A stretch of DNA of 64,000 bases from Sphingomonadales bacterium. GTDB taxonomy: Bacteria > Pseudomonadota > Alphaproteobacteria > SMXS01. Shown piece by piece: positions 16,006-22,528 of this stretch (the stretch's first letter is position 1; each line of letters starts with the position of its first letter). The position numbers and the translations under genes were made by a program. The stretch is from the NCBI GenBank assembly GCA_022844405.1, contig JALHLV010000004.1, positions 62,001 through 126,000 on the forward strand, read 5' to 3'. The notes beneath the pieces are model-generated. The model did not search any database. It had not been told where the DNA came from and saw nothing but the letters and a program-made list of their open reading frames with translations.

Positions 16006-16055
16006 CGGCGCGCCTTCCGCTGGCGCCATGCGGCGGCAATGCTAAACTCGATTCC

Positions 16056-16646
16056 ATGACGGAACCCGCCCAGATCCGCGATACCCCTGACGCGCGACTG
16101 CTGCGCCAGGGTTTGGTGCCGGGCCACGAGGCCATCAACGCGCGGCTGCGGCCGCTGTTGCTGGAGATGGCCGCCCGCATTCCCGACAAGGGCACCAACA
16201 AGGCGAACGGCGACTCCTATTTCAGCAACAAGTGGCTGTCGGCGCGCGACCTGCACCGGCTGCCCGATCCGCAGATGCGGACCCTGGTCGGGCTGATCGA
16301 AGCCGTCGCCAACGGCGTGTCATGGCCTGCGGCCGCGCCGGCGCCGCTGCGGATCGGCGCCATGTGGGCCATCGTCTCCAAAACCGGCATGGAGGGCCAG
16401 CCGCACAAGCACACGGGCCGCGTATCGGGCGCCTATTATGTCGATGCCGGAGACTGCGACGGCGACGGCAACGGGGCGTTCGCCGTCTACACGCCGCAAG
16501 GCGGCCAGCTGCTGCGGACCATCCAGCCGAAGACCGGGTTGATGCTGATGTTTCCCAACACCCTGTGGCACGGCGTATTACGCTATCAGAGCGACAAACC
16601 GCGCATCGTCATCTCCTTCAACTGCGATGCGCCTTCCCACCCATGA
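16056..16646 (+). CDS. putative 2-oxoglutarate/Fe(II)-type oxygenase
   Basis: 196 residues. The C-terminal half has a double-stranded beta-helix pattern seen in the TIGR02466 family: MWAIVSKTGMEGQPHKHTGRVSGAYYVD in pieces, the acidic DCDGDGNGAF, LMLMFPNTLWHGVLRY (distal His) and RIVISFNC. The His-x-His/Thr and distal His could bind iron. ATG 16056 precedes MTEPAQIRDTP. Substrate unknown. Same direction as the VOC gene before and the rRNA pseudouridine synthase gene after. Confidence 0.62.
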   Translation: MTEPAQIRDTPDARLLRQGLVPGHEAINARLRPLLLEMAARIPDKGTNKANGDSYFSNKWLSARDLHRLPDPQMRTLVGLIEAVANGVSWPAAAPAPLRIGAMWAIVSKTGMEGQPHKHTGRVSGAYYVDAGDCDGDGNGAFAVYTPQGGQLLRTIQPKTGLMLMFPNTLWHGVLRYQSDKPRIVISFNCDAPSHP

Positions 16647-16716: not shown

Positions 16717-17448
16717 ATGACCAAGCCCTCCCCGACCATGCGCCTCGACCGGCTGCTGTCCAACCTGGGCTACGGCAGCCGCAAGGAGATGACCGCCGCG
16801 ATCCGCAACGGCTGGGTGACCATAGGCGGCGCGGACGTCACCGATCCGGGATACCCGGTACCGCTTGACCGGGCGGACACCGTGCGACTCGACGGCGAAG
16901 TCATCGATCCGCCGCCGCCGATGGCGGTCATGCTGCACAAGCCGGCGGGCTACACCTGCTCGCACAACGATCTCGGCGCGCTGGTCTACGACCTGCTGCC
17001 CGACCGCTGGCGCATCCGCAAGCCGCCGCTGTCGATGGTGGGACGGCTCGACAAGGAAAGCACCGGCCAGTTGCTGCTGACCGACGACGGCGACCTGCTG
17101 CACCGGATCACCCATCCGCGCAGCCACGCGGCCAAGCACTATCGGGTCGCCCTGCGCGACAAGCTGCGCGGCGACGAAGCGGCCCTGTTCGGCGCGGGCG
17201 GCTTTCTGCTGGGCGGCGACGCCAAGCCGCTGAAGCCGGCGTCCTGGACGCCGGACGGGCCGGCGAGCGGCGTGATGGCGCTGGACGAGGGCCGCTACCA
17301 CCAGATCCGCCGCATGTTCGAGACGCTGGGCAACCTGGTGGTGTCGCTTCACCGCTTCCGCACCGGCGGCCTCGACCTCGGCGCCCTGCCCGAGGGCGCC
17401 TGGCGATATCTGGATGCCAGCGACCTGGAAATGCTGTTCAATCCCTAG
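16717..17448 (+). CDS. rsuA: RsuA-type 16S rRNA pseudouridine synthase
   Basis: 243 residues. An S4 RNA-binding domain (about 8-65: RLDRLLSNLGYGSRKEM, NGWVTIGG) is followed by the catalytic domain with GRLDKESTGQLLLTDDGDL, in which Asp112 is the catalytic residue, then the HRITHPRSHAAKHYRV and GRYHQIRRMFETLGN motifs. RsuA converts one uridine of 16S rRNA (U516 in E. coli) to pseudouridine. RsuA versus RluE/RluF is a judgement from the short S4-first layout. A GT14 gene starts 44 bases later. Confidence 0.88.
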   Translation: MTKPSPTMRLDRLLSNLGYGSRKEMTAAIRNGWVTIGGADVTDPGYPVPLDRADTVRLDGEVIDPPPPMAVMLHKPAGYTCSHNDLGALVYDLLPDRWRIRKPPLSMVGRLDKESTGQLLLTDDGDLLHRITHPRSHAAKHYRVALRDKLRGDEAALFGAGGFLLGGDAKPLKPASWTPDGPASGVMALDEGRYHQIRRMFETLGNLVVSLHRFRTGGLDLGALPEGAWRYLDASDLEMLFNP

Positions 17449-17492
17449 GAACCGGCCTTCCAATCGTCGGTAAACTGGGTGATTCTCGGCCG

Positions 17493-18446
17493 ATGCGAAT
17501 TGTCTATTTCATCCGGGCACATAGGGGGCCACGCCAGGTCGCGCGCCTGGTGGAGGCGCTGCGCCACGAGGGCGCGCGCTTCCTGATCCACATCGACCGC
17601 AAGGTGGACGAGGCCCCCTTCCGCGAGGCGCTGGCCGAACCCGGCTCGACGGACGACATCCGCTTCGCCCGGCGGCGCTTCGCCATGAACTGGGGCGGCT
17701 TCAGCCTGGTCGAGGCCACGCTGTCCGGCATGCGGGAAATCCTCGACGGGGGCACGCCCGAGCGCATCTGCTCCATGAGCGGGCAGGACTATCCGCTGAT
17801 CTCCAACGACGCCATCGCCGACTACCTCGCGCGGCAGCCGGACACCGAGTTCATCAGCTACGGCGCCATGCCGCCCGCGTTCTGGCCGCCCGGATACATG
17901 TCCCGCATCGAGCGCTACCACTTCTACGACTGGACGCCGCTGGTCTGGCCCGACAACACCAACGGCGTCATCTCGCGCCGCGCGACTTATCGGCTCCGGC
18001 TGGTCAGGAAACTGGCCCACTGGCTGTTGCCCAGGCGCCCTATCCCCGTCGGGTTCAGCCCCTATGGCGGTTCCGCCTGGTGGTGCCTGACCGGCGCGAC
18101 CGCCCGCCGCCTGCTGGAGATGTCGGACGCCCACCCCGAGCTGGGCCGCTTCTACCGGTACACCGAGCATCCGGAGGAAATGTATTTCCAGACGCTGCTG
18201 CTGAATTCGGGCATGGATCCGGCGCGCGTTCGCGGCGAGTACCGGCAAAACGAGCTCGGCGACTACCTGTGGTTCGTCGACTGGCGCGGGAAGGCGTCGC
18301 CGCGCACGCTGCGCGAAGACGACCTGGACCTGCTGCTCGCATCGAACCGCATGTTCGCGCGCAAGTTCGACGCCGAGATCGACAGCCGCATCCTGGACCT
18401 GATCGATAAAGCCCGTCCGGCACATTCGATCCGGCTCCCTTCATGA
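17493..18446 (+). CDS. GT14 family beta-1,6-N-acetylglucosaminyltransferase-like protein
   Basis: 317 residues. Core-2/I-branching enzyme features: N-terminal IVYFIRAHRGPRQVARLVEAL, FLIHIDRKVD, a SGQDYPLISN loop, and a YGGSAWWCLTG stretch followed by EHPEEMYFQTLLLNS. This family adds GlcNAc (or xylose) branches without a DxD motif. Bacterial homologs usually serve surface glycan synthesis. The last four bases overlap the sulfotransferase start (ATGA), showing translational coupling. Confidence 0.85.
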   Translation: MRIVYFIRAHRGPRQVARLVEALRHEGARFLIHIDRKVDEAPFREALAEPGSTDDIRFARRRFAMNWGGFSLVEATLSGMREILDGGTPERICSMSGQDYPLISNDAIADYLARQPDTEFISYGAMPPAFWPPGYMSRIERYHFYDWTPLVWPDNTNGVISRRATYRLRLVRKLAHWLLPRRPIPVGFSPYGGSAWWCLTGATARRLLEMSDAHPELGRFYRYTEHPEEMYFQTLLLNSGMDPARVRGEYRQNELGDYLWFVDWRGKASPRTLREDDLDLLLASNRMFARKFDAEIDSRILDLIDKARPAHSIRLPS

Positions 18447-19357
18447 CGCCCGGGACCCGCGTCCATGTCGGACTTTTCGTCATCGGCGCGATGAAGTGCG
18501 GCTCCACGACGCTTTACGACCTGCTGGCAACCCATCCCCAGATCTGCATGTGCCGCGAAAAGGAGCCCGCCCATTTCGTCGGAGCCGACGTCATCGGCGC
18601 GCTGCGGCCTTCCCGGGTCAAGCGCTGGTGGACGCTGGAGGCCTATCACGGCCTGTTCGAGCCGACCGCCGAGACCCGGATCTTCGGCGAGGCGAGCACC
18701 TTCTATACCCAGCTCCCGGCGACGGCGGGCGTCGCAGCGCGCATCCACGCCTACAACCCCGACGCCAGGCTGATCTACATCGTCCGCAATCCTTTCGCCC
18801 GGATGGTGAGCCACTACAACCACAGCTATCGCGAAGGTGACGAGCGACGGGCGATCACCGAAGCCGTGGTGGAGGATCCGCGATACCTCGACCTGAGCGA
18901 CTACGCGATGCAGCTCGCGCCGTTCCGTGAGATCTTCCCCGAGGACAACATCAAAGTCCTTGTCCTCGAACGCTTCCGGGCCGCGCAGGCCGACACGATG
19001 GACATGATCCATGACTGGCTGGGCCTGCGGCCGGCAGATCGAAACGCCAGCCCCCCGGAACATGCCGTTCACGTGACGGATCGGCGGGTCGGGCCACTGC
19101 GGGGCGGGCTGCGGCGCGAGAACTTCCTGGGTCTCTGGGACTCGTGGCTGTGGAGGTCACTCAGCAGGAACGCGCCGCCATGGGTGAAGGAAGCCGTCAG
19201 GTCGCTCGTCTATAGCCGGCGGATCGACACGCGCGACGTCCCCTATGACAGGCTCCGGTCCCTGGTCGGTGAGCGGCTGGCCGAGGGCGCCGGCCGATTT
19301 CGCGGCATGATCGGCGACGACCTGCCGGAATGGCGGGTTGGCCCAACCGCCCTGTGA
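18443..19357 (+). CDS. PAPS-dependent sulfotransferase
   Basis: 304 residues. The 5'-phosphosulfate loop is GAMKCGSTTLYDLL (about 14-27) and the 3'-phosphate motif is YIVRNPFARMVSHYNH (about 112-127), as in heparan and bacterial NodH-type sulfotransferases. FGEASTFYT holds the acidic/catalytic region. It transfers sulfate from PAPS to a hydroxyl or amine, likely of a sugar given the glycan neighbours (inference). Start overlaps the GT14 stop by 4 bases. Confidence 0.88.
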   Translation: MTPGTRVHVGLFVIGAMKCGSTTLYDLLATHPQICMCREKEPAHFVGADVIGALRPSRVKRWWTLEAYHGLFEPTAETRIFGEASTFYTQLPATAGVAARIHAYNPDARLIYIVRNPFARMVSHYNHSYREGDERRAITEAVVEDPRYLDLSDYAMQLAPFREIFPEDNIKVLVLERFRAAQADTMDMIHDWLGLRPADRNASPPEHAVHVTDRRVGPLRGGLRRENFLGLWDSWLWRSLSRNAPPWVKEAVRSLVYSRRIDTRDVPYDRLRSLVGERLAEGAGRFRGMIGDDLPEWRVGPTAL

Positions 19358-19446
19358 CGCTGCGCCTGTATGCCCTTGGGGCTCTGCACCCTTGCCGCCA
19401 ATGGTCCGGGAGGACTAGGCTTGGGCCGTTGGACAAGGGGTCAGGG

Positions 19447-20166
19447 TTGGGCCTGTTTCGGAAATCCATCGTCCGTCGGTTGAAGCGGCACGGCATCGTG
19501 CGGGCGCCGCGGCATTTGCGCGAGTTCGAGGCCGAAGCCGCCCGCATCAACGGGCGTCACCGCCGTCAGACGCTGGCCGATGTCGAGGCGCTCAGGGCCA
19601 GATATGCCGCTCCAATCCTGGGCGACGTGCTGGTGTGGGACCTGATCCGCGCCCTGACCGACGTGCACGACGCCACCGATCCCCAGTTGGGCAGCACCAG
19701 CCAGCTTACCCACACGATCAACGTCGCCGCCGCCATGGAGCGCGACGGCGTCACCGATGAGGACCTGCTGGTGGCGGCGCTGGTCCACGATACCGGCAAG
19801 CTGCTGCTGACGGTCGGAGAGGCGCCGGAGAACGTGTTGTGCATGAACGAACCCATCGGCGAGTACGCGCCCGGCGTGGGCCTCGACACCTGCGTGTTCC
19901 AGTGGAACCACGACGAGTTCGCCTGGTCCCGCTACCGCGAGCATGTGCCGGCCCATCTCGCCTGGCTGCTGCGCTATCACAGCATCTATCCCGACCGGTG
20001 CGCGCCGCTGATGGACGACCGCGACCGCGCGTGGACGGCGCGCTACCTGAAGCCGTTCAGTCACTACGATCAGGATTTCAAGTCGCCGTTCCGGCCGGCC
20101 GACCGGCCACTCGAACACTGGCGCGAGCTGATCTTCGACCGTTTCCCGCGCCCCATCCCGTTCTAG
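19447..20166 (+). CDS. myo-inositol oxygenase (MIOX) family diiron protein
   Basis: 239 residues from TTG 19447, preceded by AAGGGG; earlier in-frame starts overlap the sulfotransferase gene. All six di-iron ligands of human MIOX and its substrate lysine have counterparts: His89 (QLTHTI), His114-Asp115 with Lys118 (HDTGK), His155 (WNHDEF), His178 (RYHSIYP) and Asp208 (SHYDQDF); DVHDATDPQ matches the DESDPD segment. MIOX cleaves inositol to glucuronate with O2. This one is shorter, with about 30 residues missing between Lys118 and His155, so the substrate may differ. It sits between sulfotransferase and glf. Confidence 0.78.
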   Translation: MGLFRKSIVRRLKRHGIVRAPRHLREFEAEAARINGRHRRQTLADVEALRARYAAPILGDVLVWDLIRALTDVHDATDPQLGSTSQLTHTINVAAAMERDGVTDEDLLVAALVHDTGKLLLTVGEAPENVLCMNEPIGEYAPGVGLDTCVFQWNHDEFAWSRYREHVPAHLAWLLRYHSIYPDRCAPLMDDRDRAWTARYLKPFSHYDQDFKSPFRPADRPLEHWRELIFDRFPRPIPF

Positions 20167-20176
20167 GGCGGCGTCG

Positions 20177-21286
20177 TTGCCCCGACAGCAGCCTGAGATC
20201 GTCGTCGTCGGCGCGGGCTTTTCCGGCGCGGTCGTGGCGCGTTCCCTGGCCGATGCCGGCCACCGCGTCCGCATCATCGAGCGGCGCGGCCATATCGGCG
20301 GCAATGCGTATGATGATTTCGATGCCCACGGCATCCTGGTGCACCGCCACGGGCCGCACCTGTTCCATACCAATTCGGCCCGGGTGTTCGACTACCTCGG
20401 CCGGTTCACCGCCTGGCGGCCTTATGAGCACCGCGTGCTGTCGAGCGTGGGCGGCAAGCTGCTGCCGGTGCCGATCAATCTCGACACCATCAACGGCTTC
20501 TTCGGCCTGGACCTGACCGAGGCGGAGGCGGCGGCCCATCTCGCCCGCATCCGCGAGCCGCGCGACCCGGTGCTGACCAGCGAGGACGTGGTGGTCAACG
20601 CCGTGGGCCGCGACCTCTACGAAGCCATGTTCCGCAACTACACCAGGAAGCAGTGGGGCCTCGACCCATCGGCGCTGGACGCCAGCGTGGCCGCGCGGAT
20701 CCCCGTGCGCACGAGCCGCGACGACCGCTACTTCACCGATAGCTACCAGGCAATGCCCGCGGACGGTTATTCGGCGCTGTTCCGGCGGATGCTCGATCAC
20801 CCCGCCATCGCGGTGGAATGCGGGGTGGATTTCTTTACCGTGCGGGACCGGCTTGTGCCCCGCCACCTGATCTATACCGGCCCGGTCGACGGCTTCTTTG
20901 GACATGTCCTGGGCCGCCTGCCCTACCGGTCGCTGCGCTTCGAGCACGAGCATGTCGCCGGCACCGGCAGCTTCCAGCCGGCCGCGACTGTCAACTATCC
21001 CAACGAGCACGCATTCACGCGGATCACCGAGTTCCGCAAGATCACCGGGCAGGCGGCAACCGGCACGTCGATCGTGCGCGAATATCCGCAGGCGGAGGGC
21101 GAACCCTACTATCCCGTGCCCAATCCGGCGAACCAGGCGCTCCACCACCGCTACCGCGCGCTGGCGAGGGCCGAAGAGGACGTCACCTTTGTCGGAAGAC
21201 TGGCCGAATACCGCTATTACAACATGGACCAGGCCGTCGGCTCGGCGCTGAAGGTGGCGGGCCGGCTCGTCCGGGCGCTGTCGTAA
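20177..21286 (+). CDS. glf: UDP-galactopyranose mutase
   Basis: 369 residues, the usual bacterial length. FAD-binding VVGAGFSGAVVARSL, then RRGHIGGNAYDD, YGPHLFHT-type motif HRHGPHLFHTNS, VPINLDTINGFF, YTRKQWGLDP and the C-terminal YYPVPN and EYRYYNMDQ are all diagnostic. It interconverts UDP-galactopyranose and UDP-galactofuranose, supplying galactofuranose to surface glycans. Start is TTG 20177, 10 bases after the MIOX-like stop, so probably the same operon. No obvious galactofuranosyltransferase is in the window. Confidence 0.93.
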   Translation: MPRQQPEIVVVGAGFSGAVVARSLADAGHRVRIIERRGHIGGNAYDDFDAHGILVHRHGPHLFHTNSARVFDYLGRFTAWRPYEHRVLSSVGGKLLPVPINLDTINGFFGLDLTEAEAAAHLARIREPRDPVLTSEDVVVNAVGRDLYEAMFRNYTRKQWGLDPSALDASVAARIPVRTSRDDRYFTDSYQAMPADGYSALFRRMLDHPAIAVECGVDFFTVRDRLVPRHLIYTGPVDGFFGHVLGRLPYRSLRFEHEHVAGTGSFQPAATVNYPNEHAFTRITEFRKITGQAATGTSIVREYPQAEGEPYYPVPNPANQALHHRYRALARAEEDVTFVGRLAEYRYYNMDQAVGSALKVAGRLVRALS

Positions 21287-21292
21287 GCCGCC

Positions 21293-22528
21293 TCAGGCCC
21301 AGGATTCGGTCAGGGCCGAGTAGACCAGGGTACGCAGATCCCGGCGCAGCGCGATGCGGTGCGGCGACTGCAGCACCTGGGTCATGAACACCACGGTCAG
21401 GTCCTCCTTCGGGTCGATCCAGAAGGCGGTCGAGGCGGCGCCGCCCCAGAAGAACTCGCCCACCGTGCCGGGAAGGCGCGTCCGCGCCACGTCGGTGGTC
21501 ACGCCGCAGCCCAGCGAGAAGCCGATGCCCGCATAGCCAGCCTCGTTGAACTGGGCCGACGCCAGGCCGATCTCGGTCATGTCCTTGCCGCCGGGCAGGT
21601 GGTTGAGGCTGAACAGCGCGACGGTCTTGGCGCCGAGGATGCGCTGGCCGTCCAGCTCGCCGCCGTTCAGCAGCATGCGACAGAACCGCATGTAGTCGCC
21701 CGCCGTCGACACCAGCCCGCCGCCGCCCGATTCGAACACCGGCGGCGCGGCATAGGTGCTGGCCTGGGCGTCGTCCTGCAGCTTGATGCCGCCTTCGGGC
21801 CTGGCCACGTAGCAGGTGGTGAAGCGCTCGAGCTTGTCGGCCGGGACGTGGAACGCCGTGTCTGTCATGCCCAACGGCTCGAACAGTGTCGTGCGCAGGA
21901 AGTCGCCGAACGTCCGGCCGGAGATCTTCTGCACCAGGTAACCCAGCACGTCGATCGACACCGAATAGTTCCAGGCCTCACCCGGCGAGCATTCCAGCGG
22001 CAGCTCGGCCAGGTCCTCGATGAAGCCGTCGAGGTCGCGCGGACCCGGCATGTCGGCCACCTTGCGCTTGCGGTAGGCGGCGTCGACATTGGTCCGCGCG
22101 AGGAAGCCGTATGTCAGACCGGCCGTGTGGGTGAACAGGTCGATCACCTTCATCGGGCGCCGGACCGGCGTGGTCAGGAAGGCGCCCGGCACGCCGCCGG
22201 CGAACACGGCCAGGTTCTTCCACGACGGGATATGGGTGGCGACGTCGTCGTCCAGGCCGATCAGGCCCTGCTCGACCAGGATCATCAGCGCCACGGCGGT
22301 GATCGGCTTGGTCATGGAATAGATGCGGAAGATGGCGTCTTCGCGCATGGGCTTGCCGCGCTCCAGGTCCATGGAGCCGAGCATGCCGTTATAGGCCAGC
22401 TCGCCGTGCCGCCAGACCTGGATCAGGCTGCCCGGAATCTCTCCGGGACCGACATATTTCCGCTCCAGCATCTCGTTGATGCGGTCCAGACGCTTGCCCG
22501 ACAGGCCGATCTGCTTTGCTTTACCCAC
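21293..22528 (-). CDS. serine hydrolase, class C beta-lactamase fold (esterase EstB type)
   Basis: 411 residues from GTG 22528 (GGGGAGAG box). The nucleophile motif is YSMTKP (Ser71-x-x-Lys74), the second is WNYSVSIDVLG (Tyr-x-Ser type), with GGGGLVSTAGDYMRFCRML and PGTVGEFFWGGAASTAF as later family blocks. Such proteins are mostly esterases or peptidases, not antibiotic lactamases. No signal peptide. Convergent with glf, 6 bases apart. Confidence 0.9.
   Translation of the reverse strand: MGKAKQIGLSGKRLDRINEMLERKYVGPGEIPGSLIQVWRHGELAYNGMLGSMDLERGKPMREDAIFRIYSMTKPITAVALMILVEQGLIGLDDDVATHIPSWKNLAVFAGGVPGAFLTTPVRRPMKVIDLFTHTAGLTYGFLARTNVDAAYRKRKVADMPGPRDLDGFIEDLAELPLECSPGEAWNYSVSIDVLGYLVQKISGRTFGDFLRTTLFEPLGMTDTAFHVPADKLERFTTCYVARPEGGIKLQDDAQASTYAAPPVFESGGGGLVSTAGDYMRFCRMLLNGGELDGQRILGAKTVALFSLNHLPGGKDMTEIGLASAQFNEAGYAGIGFSLGCGVTTDVARTRLPGTVGEFFWGGAASTAFWIDPKEDLTVVFMTQVLQSPHRIALRRDLRTLVYSALTESWA

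Follow-up and report, generated by a model that had tools for sequence, protein, structure and literature searches.

HD-domain oxygenases are described as sharing a di-iron site with the ligand order H..HD..H..H..D, at which a mixed-valent iron pair binds the substrate on Fe1 and O2 on Fe2 and carries out a four-electron cleavage of a C-C or C-P bond (PMC8177086). Three such enzymes are named in a 2020 review, with inositol or phosphonates as their substrates (PMC8177086). Here, we analyzed a relative of myo-inositol oxygenase (MIOX) encoded at 19447..20166 on the + strand of a 64,000-nucleotide stretch of a Sphingomonadales assembly (GCA_022844405.1, contig JALHLV010000004.1, positions 62,001 to 126,000), which we call the window and whose first letter is position 1. 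An earlier note on this DNA had described the gene product as a MIOX-like protein with a complete set of iron ligands, located in a glycan gene cluster.

Gene identity and active site

The frame encodes 239 residues, from a TTG start to a stop codon at 20164-20166, and the start at 19447 is backed by the aligned starts of its homologs (TTG in genome G001, ATG in G002 and TTG in the first of two copies in G007). The protein matched PF05153 (MIOX) at 1e-19 and 71.6 bits, against a Pfam gathering cut-off of 25, and a sequence search of the PDB returned mouse MIOX (2huo, 1.9e-9) and human MIOX (4.7e-9). Thus, the coordinates, reading frame and MIOX homology given in the earlier note were right. 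In a profile search, MIOX entries (1.8e-17 and 5.7e-17) were the only matches that count; at 0.0019 PhnZ was a weak match, with unrelated PPR designs alongside or above it in the ranking (3e-5 to 0.005). PF05153 detected a single locus in the window's assembly, as two segments of this same gene, and the full six-ligand pattern, as written for this analysis, occurred in 1 of the window's 277 open frames of 100 residues or more. The ratio of nonsynonymous to synonymous substitution rates (dN/dS) was 0.24 for the pair with the G001 ortholog and 0.34 for the pair with that of G002, as expected for a gene under selection.

Residues were compared across 12 aligned proteins, comprising six short proteins and six full-length bacterial MIOXs (from G044, G013, two cyanobacteria, Gemmatirosa and Granulicella), and mouse residue numbers were counted on an alignment of the window protein with mouse MIOX. 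All six predicted di-iron ligands and the lysine reported earlier were present at the expected codons. The ligands H89 (19711..19713), H114 and the bridging D115 (19786..19791), H155 (19909..19911), H178 (19978..19983, together with S179) and D208 (20068..20070), all on the + strand like the residues that follow, correspond to mouse H98, H123, D124, H194, H220 and D253. Furthermore, K118 (19798..19800), D75 and S179 correspond to mouse K127, D85 and S221. H89, H114-D115, K118, H178 and D208 were identical in 12/12 proteins, and H155 and S179 in 11/12. The second, tandem short MIOX of G007 (L019:10375-11124) has V at the position of H155 and keeps the other five ligands, which would suit a degenerate copy or a partner subunit.

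The ligand spacing was 25, 1, 40, 23 and 30 in 6/6 short proteins and 24, 1, 69, 23 and 33 in 6/6 full-length bacterial MIOXs, while in mouse MIOX 70 residues separate the bridging Asp from the next His and the last two spacings are 26 and 33. The earlier statement that the first four conserved residues keep the animal spacing holds when K118 is counted as the fourth (H-25-H-1-D-3-K, the mouse spacing) and fails when the next histidine is (40 versus 70). A segment given there as 30 residues is indeed gone, but it measures 29 residues, is missing after I137 (I137-G138, 19855..19860), and is accompanied by smaller gaps: relative to the full-length proteins, the window protein is also short of 5 residues at one place, 4 at another and a single column at each of two more, and has one residue extra. 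The 29-residue segment, which lies between the bridging Asp and the next His, was found in 6/6 full-length proteins and in 0/6 short ones.

We take mouse R29, D85, K127, G141-D142 and S221 to be inositol contacts, and the N-terminal Arg of the full-length set is presumably the equivalent of R29. The G141-D142 pair was not kept in the window protein in the 12-protein alignment; its place is held by C132-M133 (19840..19845), with C/M or C/V in five of the six short proteins and G/V in the sixth, against G-D in 6/6 full-length proteins. Near the N-terminus, every full-length protein carries the same Arg and the same Tyr; among the short proteins, the first of these columns holds R (in the window protein), A, D, D, D and F, and the second holds F in 6/6. 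Because neither the G-D pair nor the Arg/Tyr pair is kept in the clade, calling the window protein a myo-inositol oxygenase would overstate the evidence.

Distribution of the short clade

In a tree of the 12 proteins, the six short proteins were separated from the six full-length ones, which are 25-33% identical to the window protein, by a branch with 100/100 support. Judged by sequence, the window gene is a member of this short clade and not an ordinary bacterial MIOX. The clade totals six proteins in five genomes, namely the window's own (G000), G001, G002, G007 and one cyanobacterium (G390), and it occurred in 4/10 genomes of the window's own family. A protein search of 96 relatives matched six genomes, four with short proteins (G000, G001, G002 and G007) and two with full-length ones, and among 385 genomes of the class seven matched (three short, two full-length and two weak partial matches). 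A profile of the short set matched 14/398 genomes of a phylum sample, only G000 over the full length; in the other 13, 37-72 positions around the HD motif were matched. Cyanobacterial searches matched 3/244 and 3/291 genomes, the same three both times, one of them with a short protein. A scan of named genomes gave two loci, one in a metagenome-assembled genome labelled Rhizobium sp. Q54 (81%) and one in Cyanothece sp. UBA12306 (47%), which is G390. No relative of the window MIOX was found in the viral contigs or phages searched, and the two plasmid records that matched both carried full-length MIOXs. The alignment excluded the partial, weak matches in G371 and G172 and the 13 genomes matched over a short stretch at the HD motif; L022, the G172 locus, gave no match in BLAST against the window proteins. 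By genome labels, the clade spans an alphaproteobacterial-type family and a cyanobacterium, and it is rare in the genomes searched.

Most of the short proteins carry a basic N-terminal extension. A membrane-binding amphipathic N-terminus was considered and rejected, since in the five proteins from the window's family the hydrophobic moments of the N-termini showed no excess over shuffles (p 0.32-0.91); that of the cyanobacterial member did exceed shuffles (p 0.04).

Gene neighborhood

Upstream of the MIOX gene in the window lie a Core-2/I-branching glycosyltransferase gene (Branch GT, PF02485; 17493..18446, +), whose best PDB match was xylosyltransferase 1 (8.7e-22), and a sulfotransferase gene (PF13469; 18443..19357, +), whose product matched PDB entry 3rnl (2.1e-15) and heparan sulfate 3-O-sulfotransferase (7e-4). 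Downstream lies glf (20177..21286, +), encoding UDP-galactopyranose mutase (UGM; TIGR00031, 355.9 bits, cut-off 303.75). Branch GT and the sulfotransferase gene overlap by 4 bp, and gaps of 89 and 10 bp precede MIOX and glf, respectively. No promoter- or terminator-like sites were detected in 17200-21600 (0 and 0, with 0.5 and 1.7 in shuffles), so the operon structure is read from gene spacing only.

Branch GT was found upstream of MIOX in all four MIOX-bearing genomes of the family (G000, G001, G002 and G007) and glf downstream in three of them (G000, G001 and G007). The gene order in G001 is that of the window; in G007 it is Branch, Branch, MIOX, MIOX, glf, and in G002 it is Branch, MIOX only. 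Branch GT is not tied to MIOX, as it was present in 7/11 genomes, including G003, G004 and G005, which have no MIOX. In G003 and G005, Branch sits directly beside a beta-lactamase-like gene at the same chromosomal spot, and the sulfotransferase, MIOX and glf genes are absent there. Between Branch GT and the beta-lactamase-like gene, these three genes (window 18443-21286) were either jointly present (G000 and G001) or jointly absent (G003 and G005), and they therefore look like an accessory set. Across the family, glf occurred in 4/4 genomes with MIOX versus 1/6 without it (Fisher two-sided 0.048, uncorrected for kinship, with two of the six less than 90% complete).

Some glf genes of the family are fused. 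In G002, a frame of ~840 residues (L076:8016-10535) has UGM as its C-terminal part and a group 1 glycosyltransferase match at its N-terminus, and in G003 UGM forms the C-terminal part of a frame (L077:9322-11859) similar in length (~840 residues) and surroundings.

A putative 2-oxoglutarate-Fe(II) oxygenase gene (PF13759) lies at 16047-16646 in the window, two genes upstream of Branch GT. A PhnY/PhnZ-like pairing of its product with the MIOX protein was rejected as evidence of linkage, because the PF13759 gene holds the same place in the MIOX-less G003 and G005.

In the Cyanothece genome, MIOX is preceded on the same strand by genes for a methyltransferase and a Wzt-type ABC ATPase, and a CMP-sugar synthetase-like gene lies farther out on the opposite strand. 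Thirty-nine bp past MIOX, a 171-residue frame begins with an FAD-protein-like start and matches NF005547 (1.6e-6), an unnamed family that window glf also matches. The glycan setting described in the earlier note is supported, and it recurs in the relatives and in the cyanobacterium. The Cyanothece MIOX and the adjoining methyltransferase (L013:6907-7809) have in common a basic N-terminal leader of 21 residues, 13/21 of them identical, and its similarity score was reached in 0/20,000 shuffles; this leader is perhaps a docking segment of glycan enzymes.

Pathway markers and fold models

The earlier note had reported no inositol catabolic genes near the MIOX gene, and this is borne out across the assembly for the markers Ino1 (PF01658), UxaC and IolD, the last scored against its family cut-off. 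Among the ten genomes tested, Ino1 was found in none, UxaC only in G013, a bearer of full-length MIOX, and IolD above the cut-off in none, though every one of the ten, and every one of 14 controls, had matches below the cut-off. None of the five short-clade genomes, four of which are 98-100% complete, had Ino1, UxaC or above-cut-off IolD; they are therefore unlikely to break down inositol by these routes, inositol importers and glucuronate kinase not having been searched for. Homologs in plain inositol operons, which the earlier note had named as counter-evidence, were thus not found in the short clade. All three markers are also missing from G044, a genome with a full-length MIOX, so their absence alone does not set the clade apart.

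Structure models were built from three sequences only. The model of the window protein was poor, with a predicted local distance difference test score (pLDDT) of 50.5 and a predicted template modeling score (pTM) of 0.48; Foldseek ranked MIOX first (7.3e-4), but with a root-mean-square deviation (rmsd) of 18. The model of the cyanobacterial homolog (pLDDT 58.8, pTM 0.60, with 104/256 residues at 70-90) was aligned by a second program with MIOX (2huo) at Z 16.1, rmsd 4.7 and 209 residues, with PhnZ at Z 13.1, rmsd 3.8 and 149 residues, and with TmpB at Z 12.4, rmsd 3.2 and 136 residues; these three stood above the HD hydrolases listed, and the next entry other than them was at Z 8.7. Foldseek gave the same order for this model, MIOX and then PhnZ and TmpB. 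With caution, the predicted fold of the cyanobacterial member places the short clade among the HD oxygenases.

Proposed activity and alternatives

We favor, with no better than even confidence, the view that the window protein is an HD-domain di-iron oxygenase of the MIOX/PhnZ/TmpB type that belongs to a separate short clade and acts in building or decorating a surface glycan. The kept ligands, K118 and D75 fit HD oxygenase chemistry, while the missing G-D pair, the missing segment and the glycan neighbors point away from free inositol. Loss of the G-D pair and of the 29-residue segment suggests a substrate other than free myo-inositol and larger than it, probably a glycan sugar or cyclitol, with the enzyme not serving to degrade free inositol. 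Hydroxyls of this substrate would be bound on Fe1 of a mixed-valent Fe(II)/Fe(III) site and O2 on Fe2, after which abstraction of a carbon-bound hydrogen would lead to oxidative cleavage of the C-C bond beside an OH-bearing carbon. This would be a four-electron reaction without external reductant, yielding an acid and an aldehyde. Candidate substrates would be a nucleotide sugar or a glycan-linked sugar, coming from or serving the xylosyltransferase-like glycosyltransferase, the sulfotransferase and UGM. The suggestion in the earlier note that the protein oxidizes a cyclitol or sugar of a surface glycan is thus partly supported, by the MIOX homology, the complete ligand set and the recurring glycan setting. 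The separate clade, the absence of the three pathway markers and the low dN/dS are likewise shown by the data, whereas the metal content, the oxygenase activity, the surface location of the glycan and the substrate are all things that we infer.

Several observations count against this interpretation. The clade is small (six proteins in five genomes), and one member, the second G007 copy, lacks the ligand H155. The linkage to UGM is loose, as the only glf of G002 is the glycosyltransferase-UGM fusion away from MIOX, and G003 has a similar one without MIOX. The Cyanothece genome has no Branch GT match and no PF03275 match. Its 171-residue UGM-like frame matched UGM chains at only 0.0017 and no Pfam family, and it stops ~5 bases short of the locus and contig end, where it may be truncated or damaged; UGM identity in Cyanothece is therefore only suggested. 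The fold comparison with MIOX proposed in the earlier note favored MIOX for the cyanobacterial member and was uninformative for the window protein, whose model the second aligner matched with MIOX at Z 6.3 among many HD proteins, the best of them, another HD protein, at Z 8.0. Moreover, unrelated helical models can score Z 13-14 according to the aligner's own warning, so that, with a three-sequence model at pLDDT 58.8, the PhnZ and TmpB matches are insecure by themselves.

The main rival is that the protein is a true myo-inositol oxygenase, which would make D-glucuronate from imported inositol and so supply a uronate for a sulfated glycan. We consider this unlikely, though it accounts for the retention of all ligands, K118, D75 and S179, and for the glycosaminoglycan-like character of the neighbors, a xylosyltransferase-like glycosyltransferase and a sulfotransferase weakly like heparan sulfate 3-O-sulfotransferase. 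A bacterial MIOX, that of F. johnsoniae, is also reported to yield D-glucaric acid in engineered yeast (PMC12076931). However, the clade has lost the G-D pair, the Arg/Tyr pair (apart from the Arg of the window protein) and the 29-residue segment, and Ino1 was found in 0/5 short-clade genomes.

Two further alternatives would do without an oxygenase. An HD-domain hydrolase with a retained two-metal site, e.g., a phosphatase acting on a glycolipid or nucleotide, would be compatible with the weak model of the window protein, which does not part oxygenases from hydrolases; we regard it as improbable, because sequence comparison puts MIOX nearest among solved structures, MIOX, PhnZ and TmpB lead the list for the cyanobacterial model, and the MIOX lysine is present in 6/6 short proteins. 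Less probable still is a non-catalytic or scaffolding role in the glycan machinery. In its favor are the ligand loss in the second G007 copy and the leader common to the cyanobacterial MIOX and methyltransferase, as a possible docking segment; against it stand the intact ligands of 5/6 proteins in two distant lineages and the low dN/dS.

Within the favored interpretation as a glycan-modifying oxygenase, the link to UGM suggests a furanose substrate. UDP-galactofuranose, the product of UGM, has an exocyclic vicinal diol that would offer a possible C5-C6 cleavage site. A MIOX-type four-electron cleavage there, in UDP-galactofuranose or a galactofuranosyl residue, would give a five-carbon furanose acid or aldehyde, and the protein would then be a fourth kind of HD-domain di-iron oxygenase, one that edits sugars during glycan assembly. 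This proposal is a long shot, the more so because the UGM-like frame of the cyanobacterium is weak evidence; if true, it would be a new route to unusual pentofuranose units.

More broadly, a clade that retains the di-iron ligands and is found next to glycan genes in two lineages far apart would bring sugar polymers within the reach of HD oxygenase chemistry, and it would caution against labelling every PF05153 protein an inositol oxygenase. We found no literature joining inositol oxygenase, polysaccharide biosynthesis and UDP-galactopyranose mutase, and only work on Francisella joining myo-inositol oxygenase, glycosyltransferase and O-antigen, in searches that left subscription papers mostly outside.

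Comparison with known systems

The HD-domain phosphonate oxygenases PhnZ and TmpB resemble the short clade in the fold of the cyanobacterial model and in the six-ligand di-iron site. Their substrate loop carries a YxxE motif (PMC8177086), and unlike them, the window protein has no YxxE anywhere, and it scores 23.9 bits against TIGR03276 (cut-off 214.6); no phosphonate genes were found among the seven neighbors scanned with Pfam.

MIOX itself (EC 1.13.99.1; mouse 2HUO, human 2IBN) has in common with the window protein the PF05153 family, the H..HD..H..H..D pattern and the equivalents of K127, D85 and S221, and with the clade the fold predicted for its cyanobacterial member. In contrast, the window protein lacks the 29-residue segment and the smaller stretches, has G141-D142 replaced, and comes from a genome without the inositol and uronate markers UxaC, Ino1 and above-cut-off IolD. 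Francisella MIOX has been described among genes for glucuronate use (PMC3479022). With the full-length bacterial MIOXs, the window protein shares the ligand set and K118, and it differs from them in its place on the other side of the tree; the full-length gene of G044 adjoins genes for an FGGY sugar kinase and an RraA-like protein, and that of Granulicella adjoins a sugar transporter and a GH92 gene, whereas the window gene stands between a sulfotransferase gene and glf.
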